DNA of 47,117 bases from the IMG/VR virus record IMGVR_UViG_3300008448_000154, positions 1 to 47,117 of that record, one strand, 5' to 3'. The position numbers and the translations under genes are program-made. The notes under the pieces were generated by a model. It worked only from the letters and a program-made list of their open reading frames with translations, did no database searches and was not told the DNA's origin. Source of the DNA: a virus. Shown piece by piece: positions 2,008-45,063 of this stretch. Positions within the stretch are counted from its first letter, which is position 1. Each line of letters begins with the position of its first letter.

Positions 2008-3780
2008 TTATTCTCCTGCCCGCTTACGGCGAATTAGACCAGTGACTGGGTCGCGGATGAACCCAGCGCTTGGAGCACCACCCGCTGGCGGCGCTGTTGC
2101 GGGACCAGATGAAGCAGGCGCTTGGCTTGGATACGTTTTCAAACCTGTTGCAATACCCTGAATGTCTTCGTAGTATTTGTCGTACATCTTCATGTACTGA
2201 TCTGAGTCTAAGAACTCTTCGGCAGTCATCTTTGACTTCTTAAACTCTCTTGCAGATTGACGATCAAATTGTGCCTTAGCAGTTAACAGGTCAGCCTTAC
2301 GACGTACAGTCTCAGCAGTGTCCTGTGGGCTGATGTTTGCGTTGCCAAGAATCAAACGCTCACGCTCTGTGGTTGAGCCTTTCATAGCCTTTTCTGCATT
2401 CAACTGCATCTGGGCTGTGTACATCAAGAACGTGCGGAATGTTGCCTGCTGTTGTGGACTCAGATCGGCATTTCTCATAACATCTTCAATGGCAGGAATA
2501 CCAATCGTAAATCCTCTGCCGCCGATACCGTCTCGAATAAGGTTTGCAATTCCAGAAGAAACCTTGTCGTTGTTCAAGATGCCAGTCATTTTCTTGAAGT
2601 TTGGATCATCCGTGAAACGGCGCATCACGTTAGCTGTGGCCAAGGTCTCGCTAGCATCTTTGCTACGCTGATTGAAATCTTTTCTATTTTCAATTTCTTC
2701 AGCAATTTTGGCTTCTTCAAGCTTTTTCTTTCTTTCTCGAGCCTCAACAGAGCCATCATCAACACCAAACGCTTTGCCAGTAAATTTGTCAGCCAAGGCT
2801 TTGTAGCCAGCCCAGTTGTCTTGGTTTGCAAGATATTGAAGTTGCATTGCAACATTCTCTGGGATCTTAAAGCTACTGCCGTTGTAACCTTCTCCCATGA
2901 TCGGCACTTCAACATATCGACCATTCAAGAATGGATTAAATACACCAGTGCGTAAGTCTGTAATACCAGCCTCAGTTTTTTCGTAACGCTTAGACTCCAA
3001 CTCAGCGCCCTTAGCCAAAAGCTCTGCAAGCGTTTTGGTCTTGTCGTTGCGGTTCAATGCCACATACTCTTTTTGCGTCATGAACGCAGGATTGCCCTGC
3101 ATGATCTGAATGCCCTCAGGAGCCTTTGCAACTGGAGGAGCTGCTGGAGGTGCAGGGGGAGCAGCAGGCGGGGCCTTTGGAGCTTGCGCAGCAGGCAACG
3201 TGCTTTGTGGGGTTGGCCGTGGAGCCGCAGCAGGAGCCTCAGGAACCGCTGGAAGCGTTGCGGCAGGGCTAGGTGCAGCAGCTTGCGTTAAAGCGCCTAC
3301 AGGGGCTTCAGATGGCTCTGCTGGCGCGGGCACGGCAGACAGTGGCCCAGCCTTAGGCCCAGCAACTGCAGCCGCCTGTGGGCCTGCTAGAGGCCCTGTT
3401 GGTGGGGGAGTCTTTTGATCGCTAGCTAGCCACCTTGCAATATCAGCATCTCTAGACTTCAAGCGCTGAAGCTCTAGGCCTTGAGTGGCCACGCCAAGCT
3501 GCTGTTGAGCGATCTCTTGCTTTTCCTTAGCAGCAGCGGCCTCAGCAGGGCCAAGCTTGCCAGCAACACGCCCAAGCGCTTCACCAAAACTGCCTGTTTG
3601 AGTGGGGCCTAAAAACCCCTCTGCCACAGCTAAAAGTGTTGGATCAAAAAATCGATTTTTACGAACATCCAGCGATTCAGTTAGCCTTGCAAGCGCCTCT
3701 TGATAGCGGCGGTTAGCGTCAATAATGTCTGGATCATCTCCAGACAAATAACTTGCGGTGGGTGCTTTTGCTTCGGCCAT
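2008..3780 (-). CDS. Ala/Pro-rich, charged helical protein, probable internal virion protein, 590 aa
   Basis: No known family is recognised. The N terminus is helical (about residues 1-120), followed by an extreme Ala/Pro tract (about 120-225) of linker type, and then a charged, helix-forming C-terminal half with KERKKKLEEAKIAEE-like coiled-coil character. A GTG lies five codons upstream, but ATG 3780 has AAGGGG six bases ahead of it and is preferred. The gene sits between a 349-residue helical protein and the GH73 muramidase, with 1-2 base gaps. Long helical proteins with low-complexity linkers beside a muramidase are typical of ejected internal proteins of podoviruses. That role is inferred from position and composition only. 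Confidence 0.7.
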   Translation of the reverse strand: MAEAKAPTASYLSGDDPDIIDANRRYQEALARLTESLDVRKNRFFDPTLLAVAEGFLGPTQTGSFGEALGRVAGKLGPAEAAAAKEKQEIAQQQLGVATQGLELQRLKSRDADIARWLASDQKTPPPTGPLAGPQAAAVAGPKAGPLSAVPAPAEPSEAPVGALTQAAAPSPAATLPAVPEAPAAAPRPTPQSTLPAAQAPKAPPAAPPAPPAAPPVAKAPEGIQIMQGNPAFMTQKEYVALNRNDKTKTLAELLAKGAELESKRYEKTEAGITDLRTGVFNPFLNGRYVEVPIMGEGYNGSSFKIPENVAMQLQYLANQDNWAGYKALADKFTGKAFGVDDGSVEARERKKKLEEAKIAEEIENRKDFNQRSKDASETLATANVMRRFTDDPNFKKMTGILNNDKVSSGIANLIRDGIGGRGFTIGIPAIEDVMRNADLSPQQQATFRTFLMYTAQMQLNAEKAMKGSTTERERLILGNANISPQDTAETVRRKADLLTAKAQFDRQSAREFKKSKMTAEEFLDSDQYMKMYDKYYEDIQGIATGLKTYPSQAPASSGPATAPPAGGAPSAGFIRDPVTGLIRRKRAGE

Positions 3781-4833: not shown

Positions 4834-7800
4834 TTATCTCCTAGCCTTGCGAGCGGGTTTTTTAAGGTAGTCCAAAGGTGACTTTTTCGCTGGAGGCGGT
4901 AAGTCCTTTGGTTTGGCCGACCTGTGATACGCCCGAATGGAGTGCATCATGTCGTATAGTTTATCGCTTCCTGCCTTAGTTGAGCCATTTCCTAGTGCAG
5001 CAACCACGTCAGCAGGGAAAACAAACTCACCGTCAGCTAGCATGGCAGGGATGTCGTCGGACTGGCCGTCCCCTGCTCCCGTAACCGCGTTGCCTGAACG
5101 GAAGTCCAGCCGAGCCTTGCCAGCGTGCTCAACCACGTTCAAGCCACCCCCTGCGTAGTGGCCATAGCGGGTCGTTCCGCCACCACCAGCGAACAGGGGC
5201 GTTGCAAGACCACCAGCCTTGAAGGGCTGATTTGGAATCTGATTTCCGCCTAACAGATCGTCAATTTCGTTCTGTTGGCCGTAGGCGAAATAGTCAGTCC
5301 CTTGTTGGGGCTGCTGCTGTGGGTTTGAGAGTTCATCTTGCACTGGGGCCACCTGCTGGTTTTGTTGTTGAGTTTCTTGCTGTGTTGGTTTGGGCACATA
5401 AGCATTTTCTTTGACCATCTTGAGGTATTGCTCAAGGGGGCCTTCAAATTTTGCCTCGCCTGTGGTTTTGAGGCCAATGTCCTTGAAGCCGGGGGTGGAG
5501 GTGTCCACCAAGTCCCCCGCCGCAGGCGCAACAAGCGCCAAAGCACCAGCAAGGTTGCTTGCCGTTTTTGCCGTGTTAGCTGTCCGCTTTGCTTGTAAAG
5601 AGGCCTGCTTTGCAGCCTCCTCCTGCTGCTTTTTATATTCGTCAAATCCAGTCTGCAAACCAGTAACGCCTGTTCCTAGCTCTTTCAAGGCTAGATTGGT
5701 AGCGGCCTGATAGGTCTGACCTTGCAGCATCAGCTCGTCTACGCGGGTGTTGAATTGCGTTTGGACGTCAGTAATGTTTTTGGTCAGATCAGTTTTTACA
5801 GTGTTGATCTGATTGGTCGTTGTTAAAGCGGCATTGTCAATAGCCCGCGTCAAGTCAACACCCTGCTGGGTCATTCTCGCAACCAAGTCCCTTTGTCCTT
5901 GATTTAGCGTTTCAAACTTAGTTCGGACGTTTTCATTGACGCCAGTTAAGAGTGTGTTTAACGTTGTGTTAGTTACTAAATTTTGAGTAGCTGTTGAAAT
6001 TGCTGTGTTGACGTCAGCAGCAGTAAGGGCTGGATTAGCCGTCATGTAAGCAGAAATGGCGTTAGTTACATCCGCAACACTTAAATTTGGACGTGTAGCT
6101 AACTCAGCCTTGATGGCCGCAGTAACATCGGCAGCAGTAATTCCTACTGGGAATTTAATTCCAGCAATTGCAGTATTGATAGCCTGAGTAACAGCGTCAA
6201 CGGTTCCTGTTTGCGTTCCCGTCTGCGTTTCAGTACCAGTTTGAGTTCCTGTGCTCGTCTGAGTACCTGTACCAGTCTGCGTGCCAGTCTGAGTACCAGT
6301 CTGAGTTCCAGTCCCCGTCTGCGTTCCTGTGCCAGTCTGTGTTCCTGTCTGAGTGCCTGTCTGTGTACCCGTTTCAGTTCCAGTTTGTGTGCCAGTCCCA
6401 GTTTGCGTACCCGTCTGAGTCCCCGTCCCTGTCTGAGTACCTGTTTGCGTGCCAGTACCTGTTCCCGTGCTTGTTCCTGTGCCAGTAGCCGTTCCAGTGC
6501 CTGTGCTAGTTGCTTTTGCTGCGTCGTAAGCCGCCTTGTCGCCGTTGTACTGGGTGTACGTTGCGTAGTCAGGGAAACCTGCGTCGGTCGCCGTTTTGGT
6601 GTTTGCGGCAGTAGAAAGGGCAGTAGCGTATGCAGCCTTGTCACCGTTGTATTGCGTGTAAGTTGCAAAATCAGGAAAGCCTGCGGCAGTCGCAGTTGCT
6701 TTATTTTTTTCCTCGGTCTTTGCTGCTGTGTACGCGGCAATGTCGCCGTTATATTGCTGAAACGTAGCGTAGTCAGGAAAGCCAGCGTCCGTAGCTTTTC
6801 TGATGTTTGCGGCATCAGTGTTAGCAGTGTTGTAAGCAGCTAAATTACCGTTGTATTGGGTGTAAGTCGCAAAGTCAGGGAACCCTGCATCTGTTGCAGT
6901 TTTCTTATTTGCATTTGCTACTAGTGCAGCGTCATATGCTGTTTTGCTTCCACCATACTGTGTGTAAGTTGCAAAGTCAGGAAAGCCTGCATCGGTTGCC
7001 GTTTTAGTATTTGCAGCAGCGGTCACAGCGCTGTTGTAAGCGTTTAGATCACCACCGTACTGAACAAAGGCTGCGTTATTAGGAAAGCCTGCTGCTTTTG
7101 CCTCAGCATCAAGAGTAGCCGTGGTTTTTGCACCAGAGGCATCAATGTCAGTTCTAAGCGCAGTGCCTTTTGCAAGCAATAAGCCGTCGGCAGAATTTAC
7201 TTTGCCATCTTTGTTTACGTCATAGCGCAAATCAAGTGGCGTATCTGCGCGGCCAACAGCCATTTTTATAGCGGTTTCAGCCGCTGTTTTGGCTGCGGTA
7301 TAAGCCTCCAAATTTCCATTGAACAGCTTGTAAGATGAGTAGTCAGGGAAGCCTGCATCAGTAGCTAACTTAATATTCGCCGCCGTAGAATTGGCAGCGT
7401 CGTATGCGGCTTTATCACCTTTGTATTGCGTGTAGGTTGCAAAGTCTGGGAAACCAGCATCGGTTGCTTTTTTCGTATTTGCAGCGTCAAACTGTTGCGT
7501 TACAAGATTTTTTGATGCTGTCTCTGACTTGCCAACAAACGCTGTTAACTGTTCAGCAGTTGGATCAACGCCAAAAACCTCTTTGAAAAACGCTTTTGCT
7601 TCGTCTTCAGTGGTATTTAATGGATCTGCATATCTTGTGACGGCAGCGGTCAAATCGCTAGCGCTTGCGTCAGGGTTATTGTTTCCAATAGAAAGTATTT
7701 CAGCGTCATTAGGCGTATACCCTTCAGACTGAAACGTTTTGACAATCTGTGTGTATTGCTCTGGGCTTGATTGCAGCCCAAGACTTGACAAATTGTTGTA

Positions 7801-10800
7801 CTGAAGCGCATTGTTGATGGTCATCCCACCAGCCAAAACAGCAGACCGCACAAGTGTTGATGGGTCAAATGTTTTTGCACCAGTAATGATGTCATTTAAC
7901 GTTACTGATGCACCGTCATAACCCTTGGCCACAACCTGAGACAAAGCACTTGAAGAGACAATACCAGCAGTCAATCCACCTTGAATGAAGCCTTCTAGCG
8001 CTCCAGAGGCTGTGACCTCTGCTATGTTGCGCACTTCACCGAATTTACCAATTTGTGCGCTAATGTTTTGAGCTGCGCCCTCAACATAGCCCATCACAAA
8101 TTCTTTAGAGCTAGCGCCCACCACAGCAGTTGCTGCAATTCGGGCCTGATCTCCCATAAGCACTCTAAGCGCAGCCGTATCTCCGACCCAGCTTGTTGCG
8201 GCAGTCACTGCCATAGCCTCAAGACCAGAGGCAAGCGCTCGTGCTTCAGCTTTGCTAGGAGGAACGCCTCTTGAAATTAAATAGTCTTTGACTTCAGCGT
8301 AATTCCCACTGAACGATTCAAAACCATTAAGTGCTGCGTCAGTACCTCGAGCAACAGCAAAAGCTCCAGCCCTGCTGACCATTTTTGCCGCAACTGAACC
8401 CACGCCAGCAGACGCAACCAAGAACGGGATCTCTTGCAACGCCTCGCCGCCAACAACTGACAATGTGCCAAGAGGATTGTTTACTGCCTGCTTGCCAAAC
8501 TCTTTAAGCTGACGTGCAGCAACTTGCCAGTCTTTGACTTGACTTTCAGGAACGCCTAGCTCTTTTGCTACCGTTGCTTTGCTGATGTTGTTTATGCCAT
8601 CGGAGAATGCTTTTTCAGCATCCATGATGCCTTTGGATTGATTCAATTTGCCCCAGCGCTCAAAGGCTTGAGAAACCTTTAATGCGGAGTTTTCTGGACT
8701 CAAGCCCATAGCCTCTGAACCACGCAGCAGCGTTGTTGCAAGGTTGCCAAAGTTACGCGCACCAAACGCAAGGCCGTTCTTAATGACGTTTGCAACAGAG
8801 CCATCAGGCGCACCCTTGAACGCTTCTGTTGCAATTGCTAGTTGGTCGCTTAACCACTTTGGAAACTTAACACCGCCATGGTCTTTGATGAATTGCTGAT
8901 ACTCTGCGTAAGCCTTGGCATCACTATACAAAGGTGGTTCTATACGCTTTGCAACAATAACAATTCTAGGAATGTCTTTTTCGCTAACCCAATCAAATTG
9001 CTGGCCTGTGATAGTTTGGAAGTCTTGTGTCGATACACTAGGCAACTTATTTTCTGAGGCAGCTTTGGCAACAACCTTTGCTTGATCGCTTGGCATAAAC
9101 GTGTAGGTCATGCCGTTTTGCTCAAAGGTGTTGTACCCTGCTTTTTGAGCAGCGTTCAAAGCCTCTTCTTTTGTTTTGTACCCATTACCATCAAACGTTA
9201 CTGACTTGATATCGGCAAGGTTTTGCGCGTATGTCTTTGCGTTTGCCTCACTTAACGACAAAGCTGAAAACACCTGATCAGCCGTTAAGTCTTCAAATTT
9301 CAACCCTACGCTATTGAGATATGAAGTTAACTCAGTCTGATTCGTTGTGTTTCTGTCGTCATTCCAGTTTCTAACGTAGTTGTTAAAACCTGTGGTGTAG
9401 CTGTCAGCGTTACCAAATGATGCAAGCAAATCATCAGAAATTGGCTCACCAAATTGATCTAAATAGCTTGCTTTTACAGCGTTGATTTGCTTGTAGTAAT
9501 CTTTGATGTGCGCATCGGCCTCACCTGCTGACATTGTCAAAAGTTCATTTGCACGCTTGTCTGACAGCGGCAAGCCCATTTGCTTTGCAGCGTCTTTGAT
9601 CACCGATGCATTCAACTGAGTCTGCCTTGCAAAGTCAATTGATGCAGACATCATTGCGGCTGGATCGCCTGACTTCAAAGCGTTGACAAGGTTTAATCCA
9701 CTAGCTGCAAGCTTTACGTCTGAATTGTTTGTAAGAGTTGCAGCCGCATAAGTAGCACCTGTAAAGTCGCCTTTGCCAAGAGCAGAAGCAACAGCCGCGT
9801 ATTGCACGGGCCGCATTAAATCTTCAGGTATTGTGATACCGATCTGCGGCGATATGCCTATTAAAGAAGAGAGGACGCCTTGTAGGTTTTTTTTGTCTAA
9901 TGCGTATAAAAGCTGCACGCCTTGCGTGGCCGTTCTAATTGAACCTGCATTGGTTGCAAGCCAGTTTGCTGCTGTGTTATCTACGCCCGCTGCAACGTAA
10001 CTACCAAGTGTGTCAATGTCAAATGCTTGTGTGCCAAGGGTTGTTGGCAGCGTATTGAATGCTTGGCCATATGCATTAGCAGCACCGAGGGCACTTAAAA
10101 TTGCGCCTACGGTGTTGCCATTGGCAGCGTTTCCAATTGCGCTGAGGGCCATGGTGAAGGGCTGGTGCGGCCCCGGGATCATCGACGCGACGCTCAATAT
10201 CTGGGAAATGATGCCCCAGTCACTCGTTGAGCCGCCATACGCCGTGTAGAAGATCGGCATGCCTAGTTCATTAAACTGCACGCCAAAACCTGTAGAGCCA
10301 TCACCCGCAAAAGTACCAGACCAAATGTCGCCACCTGCTCTGCTGTAATTTGCAGGGATTGCTTTACCTGTTACTTTGTTGCCAAAAGTTTCGCCGCTTT
10401 TGTAAACTTTTTGGCCGTCTTTTGTTATAACTTCGTTGCTTGCAAGTGGTGCAAGCGACGTAAGAGGATACCCTTCTGAATCCGTTCCTGCGTCAACAGT
10501 CTTAAAATAACGAGGTTCTAAGGTGGCGCTTTTAGGAACCATAACGGTTCTAAATTCTTGGTTGCCATCATAATCATAGCCACCTGTTGGCTCTCTATAG
10601 AAATAATCGCCACCACCGTAGCCATATTCGTCTGCGCCTGTTACTTGAAGCTCGCGTCCGTTATAGTAATATTTAGTTGTAACAGGTGTGTACGCTGGAA
10701 CTTTGCCAAAATCTTCAAGCCTTGTAATGCCGTTGTTGTACAAGGCTTCAGCCATGGCCTTTGCGTTGAGGTCTTTGTTGCCAAATCCTTGACCAGTCCA

Positions 10801-11061
10801 TTTGTCAGATGTGCCTTGCGCAAGAATTTTTTTCTTCATCTCGCCAATGGCTTTGGCTTTTACTTGCTCTTCTGGCGAATTTAACTTTAAGCCGCTGTTA
10901 AGGCTAAAGTCGCCAAACGCATATTCTAAATCTGACAAATCAATTGGGTTTTTAACAAAATAATCGTCAAACAACTTCTGTATTTCAGGCGTTATTTCGG
11001 CGTTTGGATTTGCGTTATACCAATCCCAAACGTTGTCTATGGTTAAATTCTGTGGAGCCAT
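4834..11061 (-). CDS. giant (2075 aa) repeat-containing internal virion/ejection protein with dockerin-like EF-hand
   Basis: This is the largest protein in the window. Residues ~1-700 are mixed, with Gly/Tyr-rich and Ala-rich segments. Residues ~800-1100 hold long Ala/Val/Gly-rich helices that could insert in membrane. Residues 1199-1517 contain eight copies of a ~34-residue unit around [13 protein letters not shown], interrupted by a dockerin-like loop [12 protein letters not shown] at 1281-1292. Residues ~1518-1620 are almost pure Gly-Thr-Gln. Residues ~1620-1850 are Thr/Asn-rich coiled coil. The Gly-rich C terminus holds a conserved-looking block [20 protein letters not shown]. Size, position after neck proteins and before the muramidase, and amphipathic helices fit a protein ejected to span the envelope or a tail-tip protein. 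That is inference; no catalytic site is visible. The ribosome site (GTAAG) is weak. Confidence 0.75.
6202..6510 (-). repeat. Gly-Thr-Gln low-complexity tract (about 103 codons)
   Basis: Codons 1518-1620 of the 2075-residue protein alternate [10 protein letters not shown] and TET units with very little else. At DNA level this is a degenerate repeat of roughly 12 bases with many synonymous changes, so the protein sequence appears to be selected rather than freshly slipped. It separates the 34-residue repeats from a coiled-coil region and probably acts as an extended flexible or solvent-exposed linker. Confidence 0.85.
6511..7467 (-). repeat. eight 34-residue (102-bp) tandem repeats inside the giant virion protein
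   Basis: Eight units with the core [17 protein letters not shown] followed by DKAAYDAA can be read by eye. Copies 1-2 and 3-8 are separated by a dockerin-like insert coded around 7140-7270. Copies 2, 3 and 6 are the most diverged ([28 protein letters not shown]). The period is 34 residues where uninterrupted. Each unit predicts one or two short helices with conserved aromatics, as in solenoid repeats. DNA between copies has drifted at third positions. These are coding repeats, not a CRISPR array. Confidence 0.9.
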
Positions 11062-32517: not shown

Positions 32518-32663
32518 TTTTTCTTAGCCTGTGACAGACCTCCTGACTGTTTGGTTGGGGCGGGGCTGCCCTTCATGCTCTGGCCATCGAGCTTTTCGCC
32601 CATAGCCATGCGCTTGTGCTGGGGAACCAACACGCTCTTTTGCTCTTGATCACTCGTAGCCAT
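32514..32663 (-). CDS. small basic/Gln-Lys-rich protein, 49 aa
   Basis: The start at ATG 32663 follows AAGGAGACCGTT, a strong ribosome site lying within the end of the portal gene, 14 bases before its stop. The product (begins MATSDQEQKSVLVPQHKRMAMG and ends LSQAKKK) is short, basic and probably disordered. It may be a minor assembly protein. No family is known. Confidence 0.6.
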   Translation of the reverse strand: MATSDQEQKSVLVPQHKRMAMGEKLDGQSMKGSPAPTKQSGGLSQAKKK

Positions 32664-35202
32664 AACGGTCTCCTTGGGTTGGTACAGCCTTGGTTTGCTC
32701 GAAATTGAGCTTTGCCGCATCGCGTGTTAAACGGGCTGTTTCGATGCGTTCTTTCATCTCTTGGTCGCTCGTTGCAATGGCCAAGCGCATTTCTAGCTCT
32801 TCCATTGCCTCTTGCTGATCCTGTTGCAGTTTGGCCATATCCAATTGGATCTTGGCAGCCAGTGCTTTGTCCTTGAGGCCCATCTCTGCCTCGTCGCGTT
32901 TGGCGCGGCGCTGGGTCTCGGCCATGCTCGTGTCGAGCAACACCTTGGTGTCTGGCGTCATCTGTGGCTGTGGCTTGAACTGCTGCAAACCCTGCACCAA
33001 TTGCTGGATCACAGGCATGATGCCCTTCAGTGTCTGGTCTGCATCTAGCTCGACGTGCTGTGACGCCAAGGCAAACAGCTTATCCACTGCCTTTGGATCG
33101 GTCTGCAAGTCGTAATCCTCGAGCTTCTCGCCCATGGCCTTCTGAACGTAGCCTGTCATGCGGTTCAAGTACCACAAAACAATGTGCTGCTTGATGTGTT
33201 CCACGGCCTTGGGCAGGTAAGCTGGCGCAATGATGGGGTTGCCACCAAAGATCGGACTCTTCGCGAAGTCCAAGTGGGCTTGGATGTGGCCAAGGTGGTC
33301 TTGCTCTGGGTAGGCGTAGGCAGCCTGACCGATGGCCATAGCGACGTTCTCGTTGGCGGCGTCCATCTTCACTGGAGCTGGGACGTCAACCATGATTTCG
33401 TTGATCCCGGGGACCTTGATCTGCTTCAAGAACCTCTGGATCACCACCTTCTTGTTGAACAGGTCTGGGTTGTCCTTCATGATGGCCATAACCGCTTGGG
33501 TTTGGGCCATACGCTGCGTTTCGCTGAAGATGTGTGGGTCCGAGACTGGAATTACGTCAGTCACGCGGGCAAAGTCCTCGCGTTTGATCTCTAGATCCTC
33601 AACAACCTCACCACGCTGCATGTCATCCAAGTACCAGCGGTTGATTCGGCTCAAAACCTTGAGCACGCGGCCCTGAGACTCGTGCAAACGGGCGTGAATG
33701 GAGCTGAATACGGCTGCGCCTTGCTCAATCAGGGCTTGAGTCGTGCCAACAGGGGTGTTGGAGTTGACGTCAGCAATCTTTTCCTCTGCTGTGGTCACCA
33801 CACCCTTGGCGGCGTTGGTCAACCAGCCCAAAAGCTGGAACAGAACAGGCGAGGGGCCATTGAAGGGCATGGGCATGGCGATCTTGCGCACGTCGTCGAC
33901 ACCGGGCGCACCCTCAATCTCCACCACCTGCGTCACCTCGATCTCTTGCGACTGTCCTGAGATCTTTCCGCCCTTGAGCTTTAGGAGCGTCGCAGCATTG
34001 TTAATGTGGGCAGAGTCCAACAAGGCCCGCAAAGAGCCTGTAAGGGCTGCTGAAAGGCCTCCAATGAGCTGTGGCAAGCCAACTGCGTATGCACCACGCC
34101 ATGGAATGAACTTGAACTCAATAACCCAGTCCAATTTTGTGTAGGTGTCGTCGCCTTCTTCCCAATTTCGGTACAGGCCAATCACTTCTGTCGACAAGTC
34201 GTCGATCATCAGGATGTAAGGAGCCATTTCGCCTTTGGTGATAGGGTCGTCTTCGAGTTCAATCCATGTGTAGATGTGATAAACGCGGCGGACAGCGTCT
34301 TCGTTGTCGTTTTGGGACTTGCCCTCGACTTTGTTGGTGGCCTTTTGCGCACCAGTCATCTCTGGGTCCATGGTGGCGCGGGACATTACGGTGTCGCGGT
34401 ACATGCCAGAGGCTACGCGGCGCTTGTAATCCCAGTCAGAGATGTCGTCTACCTCAGTAAAACGCTCTGCGGTGTAGAAGTTGCCTGCTGCATAGGGCAA
34501 AAGCACGTTGTCGATAGGCAAAAACTGTGCGCAAGGGCGGCGTTTGCGCTCGTCGTACCAGAGTTTGAGGTACTGTGAGCCACCAAGTGGGAGCTGAGTC
34601 AGCATTTGCTCTTGCTCGTCGCGGAATTCCTCGATCTGCTCAGTCAATTGCCAGTTCATGAAGTCGCGTTTGCGCTCTGCGATCTGTGTTTTGTCCTCAG
34701 TAACGTCGCCCAAAATCTTGGTTTTGGTAGGGCCGTCTGGTGGGAACATCTCTTTGATGGCGCGGGCAGCGAAGTCGATGCAGGTTTCGGCCATAACAGG
34801 GTGCACGACCTTGGATGCGCCGTTGAAGTTCGCACCCCCGGGGGCGTCATTCCCCATGCCCGTCCTTTTAATGCCCTCTTCGTACTGCTTGTCACGCTGC
34901 TTGCGTGCGTCCTTGTCCTTCTCGACCAACTCAATGTAGCGCAGCGCCATAGCGCTCAGGTCGTAGTCCTGAATCAGGTCGCTGTCAGACAAGTTCTGGT
35001 AGAAGTCTTCGTCCTCCATCGGGCCTTTGGTGTCCATGGTCACCACGACGGAGCCATCAGGCAGCTCCTCTAGCTCGGAGTTGATCAGGTCAGGCATGTC
35101 GACGACCTGAGTCTCTTCTTCGCCACCAGCCTCAACGTCTTGGTTAGGGTTGCCGCCAATGAATCGGTTGAATTCTGGGTCTATTGGGAATTGGGTTGCC
35201 AT
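32650..35202 (-). CDS. portal protein (podovirus-type), 850 aa
   Basis: The product is 850 residues with an acidic N terminus and a recognisable portal core: DKQYEEGIKRTGMGNDAPGG, then FNGASKVVHPVMAETCIDFAARAIKE, a wing domain (FLPIDNVLLPYAAGNFYTAERF), a clip/stem region and a C-terminal helix (LEMRLAIATSDQEMKERIETARLT, in pieces) of barrel type. Length and content resemble large portals of P22-type phages. It lies next to the terminase-side genes and upstream of the head genes. It forms the dodecameric channel at one capsid vertex for DNA entry and exit. Confidence 0.82.
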   Translation of the reverse strand: MATQFPIDPEFNRFIGGNPNQDVEAGGEEETQVVDMPDLINSELEELPDGSVVVTMDTKGPMEDEDFYQNLSDSDLIQDYDLSAMALRYIELVEKDKDARKQRDKQYEEGIKRTGMGNDAPGGANFNGASKVVHPVMAETCIDFAARAIKEMFPPDGPTKTKILGDVTEDKTQIAERKRDFMNWQLTEQIEEFRDEQEQMLTQLPLGGSQYLKLWYDERKRRPCAQFLPIDNVLLPYAAGNFYTAERFTEVDDISDWDYKRRVASGMYRDTVMSRATMDPEMTGAQKATNKVEGKSQNDNEDAVRRVYHIYTWIELEDDPITKGEMAPYILMIDDLSTEVIGLYRNWEEGDDTYTKLDWVIEFKFIPWRGAYAVGLPQLIGGLSAALTGSLRALLDSAHINNAATLLKLKGGKISGQSQEIEVTQVVEIEGAPGVDDVRKIAMPMPFNGPSPVLFQLLGWLTNAAKGVVTTAEEKIADVNSNTPVGTTQALIEQGAAVFSSIHARLHESQGRVLKVLSRINRWYLDDMQRGEVVEDLEIKREDFARVTDVIPVSDPHIFSETQRMAQTQAVMAIMKDNPDLFNKKVVIQRFLKQIKVPGINEIMVDVPAPVKMDAANENVAMAIGQAAYAYPEQDHLGHIQAHLDFAKSPIFGGNPIIAPAYLPKAVEHIKQHIVLWYLNRMTGYVQKAMGEKLEDYDLQTDPKAVDKLFALASQHVELDADQTLKGIMPVIQQLVQGLQQFKPQPQMTPDTKVLLDTSMAETQRRAKRDEAEMGLKDKALAAKIQLDMAKLQQDQQEAMEELEMRLAIATSDQEMKERIETARLTRDAAKLNFEQTKAVPTQGDRYGYE

Positions 35203-35209
35203 GTGGTGC

Positions 35210-38200
35210 TCACTTTATCGATGACAGCCCACCGCGCTTTCGGCGCTGGACTGGTGTTTGGTCAAACATGATGGCCATGGGCTTAGATGCCTTGGGGTTG
35301 GCCATGCCTTGGTAGCCGTACTCGCGCACGAGGCGCTCCATGTCATTGGCGTCTTGCAAGGGGTTAATCACGCCTTGGTTGTATTTTGACGTGAATGGAG
35401 TGCGGTTGGACTCGCGTGCCAAGAGGCGGAAGTCCAATGGGTCCTGCGTGATGTCGTACAGGTTGGACGACTCGGCGCGGTAGCGGTTGATGCCTAGCCC
35501 CGGCTCAGGCGACACCGTGCCCGGCTCGCCCATGTAAAAGTACGAGCGGTCACGCACAGCACTTGGGTCTTGCAAGCGCTCGGCCTCCTCACCCTTGATG
35601 CCCGTGCCGTAGCGTCTTGGGTCAGTAAACATCAGATCAGGACTGTGACTGTAATGAGTTAAAACCGATTGCGTTTCGGTTCCCTTTTCTGGGGTGATCA
35701 GCTTGCGAACGTAGTCAGGCATGCCACCTTTGTAGTCAGCGCTTAGGTATTCAGGCGGCAGCAAGATGGCCTTCTGCGGGGCGTACTGGAAGCCTTGAAA
35801 GGCGTCCTCAATAGCCTTGGTGGCCATCTTGTAACCTTCGGTATCCTTGCGCCGTTTTGACTCCATTTGCATCTCACGCAACTGTGCAACTTCAGCCTTG
35901 AGCTTGGCGTTAAGCGGAGTGTAATTGACCACGCTGTTCTGACCACGGGTCTCAGCCGTCATGGCCAACTGCGCCAGCGGACTGTACATTTGTTTGTGAA
36001 TGCCCCAAGCTATCTCTTCGCCTAATGGTCCAAACTCGTTGCCTCTAATGGCATGGCCAAACAGATCGTGAACGGCGCGAAACTTCTCGTTCTCGTTAAG
36101 CCCAGTGCTAGGATCAACTTGGTTTAAAAAGTCGTGCTTATCTCCACCTTGGAAAACGTACAGGTGCTGGTTGCCATGGACGTCGCTAGCCATTTCCTTT
36201 GCGCCTTTGTAGTTGCCCTCACCACTTCGATGAAACGACATACTCACGGGTAGACGGTCAAATTGCTCGCTGGTCTCTTTGGCCAATTGGCGGTAGGCTT
36301 TTTCTAGCAGGTCGTCATAGTTCTTGGCTCCAGCCTGCTCAAGAACGTCGGGCATGCTTTGAGCGTAGGCGTTAAAGATGGCGTCCTTATAAGCGGGCGA
36401 TCCTTCAACTGCTGCCATGTGTGTGCGGCCAATAGCAGACTGCTTGGCCAAACTTGATGCTGGCATCTCAGGCATCATGAAGTCTGATCCGCTCTGCTCC
36501 TTTGTGTAGCTCTGGGCGAGCTTGAGTGGTTTGTTTTCTGGGCTGCTTATCAGCCCTGCCACTTCCTCATCCGAAAACTGTTTCGGAACTCGTTGTCCAG
36601 TTGAGCTTGGTCCTGCTCCGACAACCCCTTGGGCTTGTAGTTCAGGCGTTTCTCTAACGCCTCGCGCACTGACCGTGCTTTGGTCAAATGTTGCTGGGAT
36701 GACTCGGTAGAACGGGCCTTCTTGTCTTGTTGCATATGTAGCTCCTGTTGGTTTCCCTGCTTGCGCAGTCTTCGCCTCTGTGGCCAGAGGGGGGATCTTA
36801 CTTGAAGTTAAAGCATCTGACGCCTTTTTCAACAACTCAGGCGCTTTCTTGGCGGCGTCTGTTGTTTTCATTGCACCTTTGATCATGGCCGTAGGGCTAG
36901 CAAAGCTCAGTGCGGTCTCAATCATTGGGCGCTCTTCGCCCGACGTGACGTTGTACTTGTCCATCAAACCCTTAAGGTGCTCGGACCCAAGAAACGGCTT
37001 GTCGCTACCAAGACCTACTGCACCAAGGCCCATGTTAAAAAGGTCAACGCCTGCGCTCAATGGGTTGTTGGCCAGCACGCCACGGTTGAGCAGATCCGTG
37101 AGTGCGCGTGGCTTTTTTAGGCTTTCCACCTCTTGACTTCCTTGCTTCTTAGCCATGTCGGCAATGAGCTTGGCCATTATCTTGGCCTTCTCAAGACCGC
37201 CAACGTTTTGCTCTGAGCCAGCAAAGTCTGCGGCTGCCATGCCGCCACCGTCAAAGCGTTGTTCATGAATTAAGCCGCCTTCAGCCTTGTGGACCTCACC
37301 ACCTTCGGCTCGCTGCAATCCAGTCTGGCGAACATCAGGTAAGCCTTCTTTACGATACCAAGGCAGCAAGTCACCACGGCCTGTTTCAATCTGTTTGAGG
37401 ACTTCTGCTCGCACGTTAGCTGGGTTTGGCTGTATGCCTTTTTGCTGAAGCACATAGGCCACTTGCCTTTCAAGCAGGTCGAGCGCATCGCCTCGAGGCG
37501 ACTTCAATCCAGTCAGCTCGCCGCCACCAAACCAACGTCCAGCCTGCGCCATACCACCGGGGATGCCAAGGTCCTTAGCAATGCCCAACAAACCTTGTTC
37601 GCCAGCGTTGTATTCAGTGTTGCCAAAACCGCCCTGCTCATTGAAGTAGGGGTGGTATCGACTGCCTTGCGTTTGGCCCCCAGCCTCATGCACGTCAAGC
37701 ACTACTGAGTTAGCAAAGTCGCCAGCCTTCTGGCTGCCGTAAGTTGGGATCTTGTAGTTGGTTGGTATGTTTGCTAAATTCTGCTCACGCAGGTTCAAAC
37801 CGCCCTCAAGAACTTTTTGCACACCTTCGCGATGCAACGGCATCAACGGCAGACCTATACCAAATTTTTCTTTGTACAAAGCCATCTCTTTGGCAACATT
37901 TGCCTCAGTTAATGGAATACCACGCGCATTCATATCACGCAGAAACTGGCCAACAGCCATCTCATTCATGATGGAGTTACGGGCAGAGGCTGGAGCCATC
38001 CCATAAATCCATTGGTCAAATTTTTCGGCAGGCATGCCCGCCTCCATTACCGCCTGCTTGACAGGGTACAGCGAGGCGTAAAACGTCTCACCACCCAAAG
38101 GCAAACCACGCTTGATCTGTTTTTCAATGAGAGCGCGGTTTTCTGGATCTGTGTACAGCTCTTCAACGTGCGAGGTGCTGGCGCGACTAGGTATGTCGCG

Positions 38201-39115
38201 AGGGAAGGTAGACTGCGACACATCAGGGAAACCCTCCAAGGCGTCCTTAATAGATGCGCGGTCAAACGCTTGCAGCTCTGGTGGTGGAGGTGACCATGCT
38301 TCAGTGGGCTGGTCTAGAAACTCATTGGCCTTGCGCTTGCGTTCTGCCACCACCTCAGCGGTGTTCTGCATCTTGTTGGGATTGCTCTCAGAAAAAGAAG
38401 ACTTGGTCAATGCCCCATACTTTTTTTCCAACGCAGGCTTTTGTGTTCGCTCCCACTCTAGCTTTTTGATGGCTTGATTCATTGCCTTTTTGGCAACCTC
38501 TTCGTCACTCAGCTTTGGGCTGGCCGCTGAAATTTTGTCAGCAAATCGGGCAGCAGTTGACTCTAGAACCTTGGTGCTGTAGTTAGCTGGCTTGGCTGCT
38601 TTGGAAGGCTTGGCGGCCTCTTCAGCGGCCTTCTGGGCCGCAAGTATCTCGTCAGCCTGCTTGCTTACGTCAGACACAATGTCGGCGATCTTCATGCCCA
38701 CACCCATCTTGCCGCCCTTTTGCATATTAACCACGCCACCCTTAGCGTAGGCTGGGCCTTGGATGATCTCCTCGCTGTCTGATACGTCAGGCACGGTGTT
38801 GAACACCCCACCACCAGCAGCGTGCGACTGGGCGACGTTCCTTGCCGCCTCTTTAACGCTCTCGCCCTTGTTGACGCGGTCTACGATCTTGTTCAGGGTT
38901 GCGTTGTCAGTCTTCAGGCCGTTAGCTTGGGCGGCCTCGACAAACTCGCTGCCATCGATCAGCGCAGCAGGCTTGACCCCACCACCAGCGGCAAACTGCT
39001 GCACCTTCTTGTGCCACTCATACGCCCGCCCCTCGTATTCTTTGGGGATGCCACCACCAGCCATGGCCCACTCTTTGAGGGATTGCTTCTTAGGACTACG
39101 TTCGGGGTTGGTCAT
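35210..39115 (-). CDS. multidomain 'polyvalent-like' protein with hydroxylase-like HxxxxH...E and ART-like C terminus, 1301 aa
   Basis: ATG 39115 has AAAGGTG six bases ahead; an ATG 11 codons earlier lacks a site. Residues ~1-150 carry GG motifs (QFAAGGGVKP, YAKGGVVNMQKGG). A charged coil follows, then an uncharacterised domain at ~340-590 (FYASLYPVKQAVMEAG to LLPWY). Ala-rich, GG-bearing linkers lie at ~600-830. Residues ~950-1120 hold VHDLFGH (His1016, His1021) followed by GEEIAWGIHK and AETRGQNS (Glu1055). H-x4-H with a distal Glu is the iron-binding layout of aromatic amino acid hydroxylases. From ~1150 an ART-like end runs from LTHYSHSPDLMF through YFYMGE and LYDIT to YGYQG. Its place between terminase and portal and the mixed domains suggest a protein delivered with DNA. 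Both enzyme calls are tentative. Confidence 0.72.
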   Translation of the reverse strand: MTNPERSPKKQSLKEWAMAGGGIPKEYEGRAYEWHKKVQQFAAGGGVKPAALIDGSEFVEAAQANGLKTDNATLNKIVDRVNKGESVKEAARNVAQSHAAGGGVFNTVPDVSDSEEIIQGPAYAKGGVVNMQKGGKMGVGMKIADIVSDVSKQADEILAAQKAAEEAAKPSKAAKPANYSTKVLESTAARFADKISAASPKLSDEEVAKKAMNQAIKKLEWERTQKPALEKKYGALTKSSFSESNPNKMQNTAEVVAERKRKANEFLDQPTEAWSPPPPELQAFDRASIKDALEGFPDVSQSTFPRDIPSRASTSHVEELYTDPENRALIEKQIKRGLPLGGETFYASLYPVKQAVMEAGMPAEKFDQWIYGMAPASARNSIMNEMAVGQFLRDMNARGIPLTEANVAKEMALYKEKFGIGLPLMPLHREGVQKVLEGGLNLREQNLANIPTNYKIPTYGSQKAGDFANSVVLDVHEAGGQTQGSRYHPYFNEQGGFGNTEYNAGEQGLLGIAKDLGIPGGMAQAGRWFGGGELTGLKSPRGDALDLLERQVAYVLQQKGIQPNPANVRAEVLKQIETGRGDLLPWYRKEGLPDVRQTGLQRAEGGEVHKAEGGLIHEQRFDGGGMAAADFAGSEQNVGGLEKAKIMAKLIADMAKKQGSQEVESLKKPRALTDLLNRGVLANNPLSAGVDLFNMGLGAVGLGSDKPFLGSEHLKGLMDKYNVTSGEERPMIETALSFASPTAMIKGAMKTTDAAKKAPELLKKASDALTSSKIPPLATEAKTAQAGKPTGATYATRQEGPFYRVIPATFDQSTVSARGVRETPELQAQGVVGAGPSSTGQRVPKQFSDEEVAGLISSPENKPLKLAQSYTKEQSGSDFMMPEMPASSLAKQSAIGRTHMAAVEGSPAYKDAIFNAYAQSMPDVLEQAGAKNYDDLLEKAYRQLAKETSEQFDRLPVSMSFHRSGEGNYKGAKEMASDVHGNQHLYVFQGGDKHDFLNQVDPSTGLNENEKFRAVHDLFGHAIRGNEFGPLGEEIAWGIHKQMYSPLAQLAMTAETRGQNSVVNYTPLNAKLKAEVAQLREMQMESKRRKDTEGYKMATKAIEDAFQGFQYAPQKAILLPPEYLSADYKGGMPDYVRKLITPEKGTETQSVLTHYSHSPDLMFTDPRRYGTGIKGEEAERLQDPSAVRDRSYFYMGEPGTVSPEPGLGINRYRAESSNLYDITQDPLDFRLLARESNRTPFTSKYNQGVINPLQDANDMERLVREYGYQGMANPKASKPMAIMFDQTPVQRRKRGGLSSIK

Positions 39116-39326
39116 GCTCGACACCTTTCGATGGAATGCCGTGATCATAAACGCTAGGCGGTGTCAAGTCCATCCGTTGCACGAGCCAGCGCTCAAACAT
39201 ATCACGCGCCCAGTCCTTATCGACTGGCTGGCCCCATCGGCTGATCAGCTCGAAGCGGTTAGCGCTCATCTCCACCTTTGCAGGGTGGTTCAGGTTCTCG
39301 ATGGTCAAGTCGCCGTCATATCGCAT
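39096..39326 (-). CDS. small hypothetical protein, 76 aa
   Basis: Starts at ATG 39326, overlapping the upstream stop by 11 bases, with GGTG ahead. Its end overlaps the start of the 1301-residue gene by 20 bases. The product (MSANRFELISRWGQPVDKDW, then FERWLVQRMDLTPPS) looks like a folded small protein with Trp/Arg patches. No known family. It may be a cofactor of its large neighbour, but nothing shows it. Confidence 0.55.
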   Translation of the reverse strand: MRYDGDLTIENLNHPAKVEMSANRFELISRWGQPVDKDWARDMFERWLVQRMDLTPPSVYDHGIPSKGVEHDQPRT

Positions 39327-39643: not shown

Positions 39644-41062
39644 TCAAATAGCGTAAGGGTTAACACGGCGCACGCGGCCAGTGTCAGCGTAGTCGTCTTC
39701 GTCCCAGTCCTCGTCAGGTGGTGGGTCAATGTCCAGCCAGCCAGAGTCGCGCAGGTAGCGCAAGGCCTGAGTGCAGGCGTCCACGAGGTCGTCGTGCGTG
39801 GTCTCAGGGAATGAGCAAATCTGGCTCACAAAGCCCTCGGCCCAGTCTTTGACGAAACCCTTTCGGTTATCGCTCTCAGGGATCCACACACGGCCACGGG
39901 CGATGATGTTGGAGACGATGTTCAGGCGCTGCATCTTGTCAGCACGGCCGGGGTTATACGCACGCACAGGCAAGTGCGCCCGCTGCAAGTCTTGGATCAG
40001 CGAGATGCCTGCCGACTTGTCCTCGATCAGAAGCAGGTCCACACGTTTGCGGTCCTTGCCCTCGCCGAAGACCGTCTCGTACTCCTCGAGCACCTTGGGC
40101 CGCAGGTCTGGGTACTGCATGCGCTCTTGCCAGCAGTCGATGATCATGGCCGACATTGGGCCGTCCTGTGGCTTGAACACGCCGAACGTGATGCAGGCCG
40201 TCGGGTCGTTCTGGACCTTCTCTGAGGTGGCCACGTCGTAGCTCTGGAGGATGTACTCGAACTTGGGGAAGGGGCGGCCAGCAGGCCACAGCTTGAACAT
40301 GTCGCGTTTAACGATGCCACCCTCTTCAGGGTCGATGATCTCAGCGTAGATCTCCTGACGGCCAAGCTTCGTGCCCTCATAGGACAGGATCTGCTTGCGG
40401 AAGTTGTCAGACAGGTTTGCAAGGTTGGCGTAAGTCGAGGCGGTAGTCATCACCACGTCGTCACCCTCACGGCCAAGCAGCTCAATGATCAGGTCCTTGG
40501 GCCGTGGCGTGGTGGTGCAGATCATGCGGGTGCGCTTACCGAGACGCATGCCGAACTGGATCTGGTCCCACGCCTCTTGCAGGTAATCCCACGCGGCTAG
40601 CTCGTCGCACCAGCCACCATGGAACTGCGGGCCACGGAAGCGCTCAGGCTCTGATGCGGGGATGCCTTTGATCAGGCTGCCATTGATCAGGCGCAGCTCG
40701 TGGTACTGCTTGTTGTAGTCAGCGATCAGGCTCTTGGGAATGATGGTCAGCAGGCCTGAGTCACCCTCGAAGCAGGTCGCCTTGACGTCAGCGCTAGTTG
40801 GGGCGGCCACCAGCCACCGCGTCTCTGGCTCTTCCCATGCCCACCACGCGATCTGCTCGGCTGCTGTGCGGGTTTTGCCTGCGCCGCGCCCAGCTAACAT
40901 TAGCCAGATACTCCACCAATCACCATGGGGCAGCGTCTGGTGCGCGTGCTGGGTCTTGAACCAACTCATACGCCACGCCCATGCAAGCCTGAACTCGGGG
41001 CTAGCCAGCGCGAGGCTCTTCTGAACCTCTGGGTCTGCCACGATCTCAGCGATGTCACTCAT
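39644..41062 (-). CDS. terL: terminase large subunit (packaging ATPase and nuclease)
   Basis: The N-terminal ATPase has Walker A LAGRGAGKT at residues 56-64 (Lys63), a VAAPTSADVK coupling segment near 85-94, and Walker B with Asp153-Glu154 in GGWCDELAAW. A coupling motif CTTTPRPK follows near 190. The C-terminal nuclease carries acidic motifs (SYDVATSEK, LLLIEDKSAG, THDDLVDACTQAL) expected of the RNase-H-like fold. The 472-residue length is normal. It overlaps the terS gene by eight bases, so translation is coupled. It pumps DNA into the procapsid through the portal and cuts the concatemer. Confidence 0.93.
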   Translation of the reverse strand: MSDIAEIVADPEVQKSLALASPEFRLAWAWRMSWFKTQHAHQTLPHGDWWSIWLMLAGRGAGKTRTAAEQIAWWAWEEPETRWLVAAPTSADVKATCFEGDSGLLTIIPKSLIADYNKQYHELRLINGSLIKGIPASEPERFRGPQFHGGWCDELAAWDYLQEAWDQIQFGMRLGKRTRMICTTTPRPKDLIIELLGREGDDVVMTTASTYANLANLSDNFRKQILSYEGTKLGRQEIYAEIIDPEEGGIVKRDMFKLWPAGRPFPKFEYILQSYDVATSEKVQNDPTACITFGVFKPQDGPMSAMIIDCWQERMQYPDLRPKVLEEYETVFGEGKDRKRVDLLLIEDKSAGISLIQDLQRAHLPVRAYNPGRADKMQRLNIVSNIIARGRVWIPESDNRKGFVKDWAEGFVSQICSFPETTHDDLVDACTQALRYLRDSGWLDIDPPPDEDWDEDDYADTGRVRRVNPYAI

Positions 41063-44187: not shown

Positions 44188-45063
44188 CTAAGTAGTTTCC
44201 CTCATATCTTTTAGGACCATGCCGTAAGTGTTGACGCCCTCTTGGACCACCGCATCAGGCCTGCGCACCAGAGGGTTGCGCTTGAACGGCGTGTAGTCGA
44301 CGTGGTGATGCCAGCGGTTAAAGCGCCACACGACCTCGGCCACGTCAGGGTGTAGCCGCTCAATCATCTGGGACTTTGGCAGCGTGCCTTCTTTGGCGTA
44401 GAACTCATCAGTGTTACCACCCTTCATGGTTTGGGTGGTGGCCTTCTCTTGCAGGAACGCATTGAACTGCACGGTGCACATTCCAGCCTTGAGCACGCGC
44501 AGGGATAGGTCAGTGTCTTCGTTGTAGCGACCGCGCCAGCGTATGGACAAGCCATTCCAGATCAGCAGGCACGAGTAAATTCTGGTGTTCATTACAAACG
44601 CAGGCAGCGGCTCCTTTGCCTTAGCAAAAAAATCATAGTTGAAGCCTGCGATGGCCACGTTTTCGTAGCGGTCTGCGAAGTCCTCAGCAGCGCGGAAGAT
44701 CGTGCCTGAGGTGACCTTGACCATCAGGTTGCGGTTAAGCCTGTTGAAGCTGGCGATGTTGTCGTCCATGACCCAGTGCCTATCATGGCCGAGGCTCACT
44801 GAGTGATCCCAGCAGAAGTTACGAGCAGCCCCGGGTCCCTTGCCTCGCGCCTCACCCACCTCGTCGCAAGTGTCGTAGCTTTGCAGGTAGCTCTCTGGAA
44901 GCACCAACACCCTGCTAGGTTCAATCACCGCCGCGTATTGGTCGCGCTCGTGTGCCTCCACCACGATGTAGTAGGGCACGTTGATACGGTCCAGCGCTTT
45001 GCTCGTAAGGCGCGTCTCCCACCGCCCCTTAGACACAATGTAAATGGGGTACTTAGGGTTCAT
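44188..45063 (-). CDS. TET-associated-type DNA glycosyltransferase (TAGT-like)
   Basis: The 291-residue protein starts PIYIVSKGRWETRLTSKAL and continues VPYYIVVEAHERDQYAAVI, the nucleotide-sugar half of a GT-A-like fold. HWVMDDNI supplies an Asp100-Asp101-Asn102 metal-binding motif, and RYNEDTDLSLRVLKAG (Asp183, Asp185) is the second acidic part. A Lys/Arg/His-rich end includes RWHHHVDYTP. These are features of the TAGT group, enzymes that add sugars to modified pyrimidines in phage DNA. GAGGTGGGTAG lies before ATG 45063. Its likely partner precedes it with an 11-base overlap. No TET or hydroxymethylating enzyme is in the window, so the base it acts on is unknown. Confidence 0.75.
   Translation of the reverse strand: MNPKYPIYIVSKGRWETRLTSKALDRINVPYYIVVEAHERDQYAAVIEPSRVLVLPESYLQSYDTCDEVGEARGKGPGAARNFCWDHSVSLGHDRHWVMDDNIASFNRLNRNLMVKVTSGTIFRAAEDFADRYENVAIAGFNYDFFAKAKEPLPAFVMNTRIYSCLLIWNGLSIRWRGRYNEDTDLSLRVLKAGMCTVQFNAFLQEKATTQTMKGGNTDEFYAKEGTLPKSQMIERLHPDVAEVVWRFNRWHHHVDYTPFKRNPLVRRPDAVVQEGVNTYGMVLKDMRETT

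Follow-up and report, generated by a model that had tools for sequence, protein, structure and literature searches.

An HDxxGH domain with a conserved, metal-site-like signature in phage polyvalent-type proteins and bacterial sulfur/methyl-transfer operons

Introduction

A phage protein encoded among head genes carries the motif VHDLFGH, and the question raised by this locus is whether the motif marks an iron site like that of the aromatic amino acid hydroxylases, as a preliminary description of the sequence had proposed, or a domain of another kind. The sequence analysed here, referred to as the window, is the whole 47,117-nucleotide stretch of IMG/VR record IMGVR_UViG_3300008448_000154.

Genomic location and features of the protein

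The protein is encoded by an uninterrupted 1312-aa ORF (Table 1), upstream of which lie the genes of the small and large terminase subunits and downstream those of the portal protein and a GroES-like protein. Its placement between terminase and portal was thus correctly described, and its closest kin are mostly found between, or close to, the same two genes. The three motifs VHDLFGH, GEEIAWGIHK and AETRGQNS are all encoded in this frame, as had been reported. The residue numbers needed to be raised by 11 because the earlier count began at the second methionine (residue 12), so that His1016, His1021 and Glu1055 become His1027, His1032 and Glu1066; the spacings of four residues between the histidines and of 34 from there to the glutamate hold. 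Counted from the first methionine, the glutamate of GEEIAWGIHK is doubled (Glu1044, Glu1045). The word giant, previously applied to the protein, fits its kin (open frames of up to 4,017 codons) better than the 1312-aa protein itself. Residues 1–880 (36511–39148, minus strand) form several blocks belonging to no family, with GGG-rich linkers between them, and are weakly conserved except for a middle block (401–880).

Table 1. Features of the 1312-aa ORF and its neighbours in the window
Feature	Position	Strand	Basis or remark
ORF of 1312 aa, polyvalent-type protein holding the domain	35210–39148	−	Uninterrupted frame
Core HDxxGH domain, residues ~917–1145	35714–36400	−	tblastn and profile boundaries, AlphaFold2 model
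VHDLFGH: His1027 (36068–36070), Asp1028, His1032 (36053–36055)	36053–36073	−	Invariant, 79/79
GEEIAWGIHK: Glu1044 and His1051, second helix	35993–36022	−	Both invariant
AETRGQNS: Glu1066 (35951–35953), third helix; Gln1070	35933–35956	−	Gln1070 likewise invariant
C-terminal ADP-ribosyltransferase-like domain, residues ~1146–1312	35213–35713	−	Foldseek 6kyf, 6fkg
Large terminase subunit, neighbour	39644–41062	−	phrog_38, E 2e-27
Portal protein, neighbour	32650–35202	−	phrog_1216, E 9e-14

Conservation of the signature

An alignment of 79 rows was built from viral and bacterial contigs with 22–92% identity to the window protein. Fifteen of its columns are identical throughout, namely Y980, N1020, F1023, R1024, H1027, D1028, G1031, H1032, F1039, G1043, E1044, H1051, E1066, Q1070 and K1126. 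His1027, His1032 and Glu1066, whose conservation the preliminary description had set beforehand as the test of its proposal, are therefore kept in all 79 relatives. In a second alignment of 53 rows, centred on free-standing (solo) bacterial proteins, both histidines, the aspartate, both glutamates, the third histidine, the glutamine and the lysine are kept. Part of the bacterial set was retrieved by the patterns NDxFRxVHD or ETRGQNS, and since these contain half of the signature, that half is not independent in those rows. G1031 is replaced by alanine or cysteine in the more divergent actinobacterial rows, in which both histidines and the glutamate are retained. The alignments support a conserved triad resembling a metal site in a distinct domain.

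Extent of the domain family

No Pfam family was matched by the 1312-aa protein, none (LPD families included) by the core domain, and searches of 53 members against Pfam and NCBIfam returned no family, with scattered chance matches only. Sequence searches of the PDB, in which the protein and two alignments served as queries, likewise gave chance matches only. The single meaningful PHROG was PHROG 3170 (function unknown; residues 952–1077, E 1.3e-13). By tblastn, 150–160 residues of the core were found in 201 phage records, including Bixzunavirus-type Mycobacterium phages, of which the Sebata copy is a separate 433-aa protein near head genes, and cyanobacterial phages, where the core forms part of proteins 2,772 aa and ~4,000 aa long. 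At least 555 stretches in IMG/VR encode a relative, and GTDB genomes added 133, from which we retained the 80 best. Proteins holding the core range from ~240 to more than 3,400 residues in length, from which we take it to be a mobile unit, and solo copies exist in phages as well. Solo bacterial copies are very rare: broad surveys covering ~490 genomes of Bacteroidota and Actinomycetota added just one to the seed genomes. An enzyme-like domain outside the Pfam and NCBIfam models is shared by several hundred phage genomes and by the two operon types, both widespread in bacteria, that are described below. Annotations of relatives as lysin with a beta/gamma crystallin motif, RelA/SpoT or glycosylase were set aside, as they refer to other parts of the giant proteins or are unsupported for the core.

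Small early homologues in T7-like phages

A Foldseek search against viral models also found small proteins of T7-like Pseudomonas phages. One of them is LKA1 gp07 (188 aa; NAWFRAFHDLGH...E...DTVGQ), and its family, phrog_7806, is represented in 118 phage records. Profile comparison of this family with the core gave a probability of 95.6% and an E-value of 1.3e-8 (shuffles reached 0.012 at best), and the alignment pairs N, FR, HD, H, E and the third ligand, which is Asp or Glu in the small proteins. Their motif, HDxGH, is one residue shorter than the HDxxGH of the core. The gene comes first in Pf-10 and KoPa-1 and second in PspYZU08; LKA1 and Caulobacter phage KSC have it in their early regions. 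The equivalent position in T7 and T3 is taken by the anti-restriction gene 0.3. The T3 SAMase is the first protein to be expressed (PMC8406200).

The core domain is in this way tied to an early-gene family hitherto without a function. Both PHROG 3170 and PHROG 7806 lack an annotation, and that library connects them neither with one another nor with a metal site or the bacterial operons. The early region of KoPa-1 that holds the small homologue also holds a gene annotated as a 2OG-Fe(II) oxygenase (2615–3319).

Comparison with aromatic amino acid hydroxylases

Residues 880–1312 of the window protein were modelled by AlphaFold2 with a pLDDT of 90.2 and a pTM of 0.87, and a solo protein of Chryseobacterium with values of 93.3 and 0.91. 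The models place these residues on three consecutive helices: the first bears His1027 and His1032 towards its C-terminal end, the second bears Glu1044 and His1051, and the third has Glu1066 midway along it. The core domain resembles the aromatic amino acid hydroxylases (PF00351; PAH, TPH, TH) in the H-[DE]-x2-G-H spacing and in a second helix that is led by Phe and has a conserved Gln/Glu five residues past it, followed by a later Glu, which comes 34 residues after the second histidine in the core and ~40 in the hydroxylases. It differs from them in the additional invariant residues His1051, Arg1024, Gln1070 and Lys1126 and in gene context.

Bacterial phenylalanine hydroxylases (PF00351 proteins from bacterial genomes) carry HDLFGH verbatim, and when the family was compared with 21 of them by hhalign, HDxFGH was aligned on HDxFGH with a score of 35.2, a probability of 42% and an E-value of 2.7e-4 (the value for one comparison). 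The best of 60 column shuffles scored 22.4 and the reversed profile 14.4. Glu1066 was not placed on the hydroxylase glutamate in this alignment, comparison of the phrog_7806 family with the hydroxylases revealed no similarity (E 0.47), and Pfam Biopterin_H (PF00351) gave no match with the window protein at E ≤ 10 or, at E ≤ 1, with the 53 members searched.

Foldseek searches of the core against the PDB gave no match at an E-value of 0.1 or better, and hence no significant fold. When the solo model was compared with 350,542 PDB chains, hydroxylases, of which there are just 45 distinct PDB sequences, were the top two matches and 8 of the best 50, in a scoring that takes amino-acid letters into account beside shape. 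The E-values of the hydroxylase matches were 0.26–0.7 (0.67 or worse for the solo model), and the TM-scores 0.08–0.19 at an rmsd of ~19 Å. For the solo model against the hydroxylases the TM-scores were 0.13–0.19, from which it follows that the likeness is local and driven by the motif.

The core could still be genuinely, if very distantly, related to the hydroxylases, that is, an Fe(II) oxygenase with the same active site (HDxxGH, F-x4-[EQ]-E, later Glu) that may work with a pterin or another reductant. The order of the motifs, the identical HDLFGH, the hhalign score exceeding all 60 shuffles and the head of the Foldseek list argue for such kinship. The Foldseek values, the missing Biopterin_H match, the unaligned glutamate and the one-residue-shorter motif of the phrog_7806 family argue against it, and on balance we regard it as unlikely. 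Membership in the hydroxylases is not supported. What stands of the hydroxylase-like or derived domain first proposed is the motif likeness and the rank of the hydroxylases in the fold search; a shared fold and PF00351 membership do not. A hydroxylase-like metal site is plausible, and common ancestry is possible, although convergence onto a short motif would look alike.

Bacterial operons

In the tree, the solo bacterial copies form two clades on fully supported branches (100/98 and 100/99), each with its own operon type. Type A occurs in Aquimarina, Chryseobacterium, Aureispira, Enterovibrio, Ruegeria, Pelagibius, Actinophytocola and BD1-7, where all 12 loci have a 350-aa AdoHcyase-like NAD-binding protein as a neighbour and 11 of them DUF3293. 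The genera of type B include Nocardia, Streptomyces, Saccharothrix, Nocardiopsis, Micromonospora, Actinosynnema, Actinomadura and Paraburkholderia. Its neighbours across 28 loci are a homologue of SufS-type cysteine desulfurase (26), a Cys/Met PLP enzyme (23), a UbiE-type (SAM) methyltransferase (22) and a homocysteine S-methyltransferase (18), sometimes with a full AdoHcyase and an adenosine deaminase in addition. None of the remaining 40 contigs, which are phage-like or mobile, has type A or type B neighbour genes.

Type B is a conserved and apparently undescribed operon, with the look of a gene cluster that makes a methylated sulfur compound. Literature searches on DUF3293 and on the bacterial gene set found nothing relevant, and a link between DUF3293 and SAM lyase (E 0.002–0.007, under Pfam's cut-off) was too weak for use. 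Since the solo bacterial copies sit in these two operon types, sulfur metabolism and methyl transfer would be the home metabolism of the domain. The window's phage clade lies across a very long branch (2.88 changes per column) from the clades of the bacterial operons, and its substrate may therefore have changed.

Microbacterium, Oerskovia and Arthrobacter represent a third bacterial group. Those of its members that were read show HDxxAH rather than HDxxGH, and the group has plasmid-borne relatives. Near-identical copies of this group occur in MAGs labelled Croceicoccus, Acidobacteria, Verrucomicrobia and Proteobacteria, which suggests contaminated bins or a mobile element.

C-terminal ADP-ribosyltransferase and polyvalent architecture

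Foldseek matched the last 167 residues of the protein to 6kyf, the anti-CRISPR protein AcrIF11 (prob 0.99), and to 6fkg, the MbcT toxin (prob 0.51). Both of these proteins are ADP-ribosyltransferases, and AcrIF11 has been described as one (PMC12421852). The likeness to the AcrIF11 type is one of fold, with an E-value of just 0.018 for 6kyf and without a Pfam match at the sequence level. The core and the ADP-ribosyltransferase-like (ART) domain are paired in all nearest viral relatives with a long enough contig, down to ~60% and 48% identity; the N-terminal 880 residues are not kept among them. In long relatives the partner domains are SLT lysozyme, LPD22, ART-PolyVal, PBECR5 and InPase.

At least two unrelated effector-type domains (core and ART-like) are hence found in one chain near virion genes, as in phage polyvalent proteins, which are defined, and argued to be packaged and injected, by Iyer et al. 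(2017; PMC5512222). The likeness extends to a multi-domain late protein near virion genes with an ART domain, and no HDxxGH-type motif is named in the main text of that paper.

Given its position amid structural genes, and the long branch of the window clade, the domain might be non-enzymatic or repurposed in phages, as a module of a head or ejection protein whose conserved residues are structural. The residues in question are of the pocket type (two His, Asp, two Glu, Gln, Lys) and are strict in phage and bacterial copies with differing neighbours, and solo early copies occur, which makes this improbable in our view. Still less credit is due to the reading as a zincin-like metallopeptidase (HExxxH type) in which Asp stands where the catalytic Glu would be and which would cleave the polyvalent protein. 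Polyvalent proteins do contain peptidases of this kind, in some of which four residues separate the histidines (PMC5512222). Zincins are common in the PDB and yet absent from the best 50 matches of either model, and Pfam at E ≤ 1 gave no peptidase family save one chance match among 53 members. The Glu general base is missing in every aligned member, with Asp always following the first histidine in the 79-row alignment, and the free-standing members sit in sulfur-metabolism operons; we hold a zincin to be very improbable. An HD-type phosphohydrolase was rejected, as it is absent from the Foldseek lists and its motifs do not fit.

Proposed role of the domain

As a whole, the best explanation is an unnamed metalloenzyme family that serves in phages as an effector domain and acts on a small-molecule substrate of sulfur or methyl metabolism, a reading whose chances we regard as evenly balanced. 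The recurrence of the signature in hundreds of phages and in bacterial sulfur/methyl operons points to a metal enzyme that probably acts at the start of infection; even the term metalloenzyme is something we infer, since no solved fold matches significantly. In the predicted mononuclear site, His1027, His1032 and Glu1066 would hold one metal, possibly iron. The site would be lined by Asp1028, Glu1044 and His1051, of which the last two may have a second-shell or a catalytic role.

The solo bacterial enzyme would serve SAM–homocysteine (sulfur/methyl) biosynthetic operons, and because of this context the substrate is most likely a small molecule of that metabolism (an amino acid, or a SAM or SAH derivative). 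The tie between phage copies and these operons offers a first testable substrate class for a domain of effector proteins. In phages the core may be an interchangeable effector domain of polyvalent proteins, made late and encoded amid head genes. The protein probably travels in the phage particle and enters the host along with the DNA; its domain make-up is that of the polyvalent proteins, for which packaging is argued in PMC5512222. The core and the ART domain would then act together on the host or its defences, altering a host metabolite or blocking a SAM-using defence. Both packaging and a counter-defence role that would benefit the phage are suggested by the location of the gene and the company of its domains. 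T7-like Pseudomonas phages would instead make a reduced version early.

T3 SAM lyase depletes a host SAM-type metabolite by a different chemistry. The more specific proposal, that the domain represents a new class of phage counter-defence metalloenzyme altering or depleting a host SAM or sulfur/methyl metabolite, used as an early gene in T7-like phages or injected together with an ART domain, and recruited from, or given to, bacterial operons, is one that we consider rather doubtful.

Other features of the window

A 2075-aa frame (4834–11061, minus strand) is without a PHROG match at E ≤ 0.001. The protein encoded at 44188–45063 (minus strand) matches phrog_842, beta-glucosyl-HMC-alpha-glucosyltransferase (E 1e-51), a hint that the phage has its DNA modified with sugar or carries out glucosylation of another kind.
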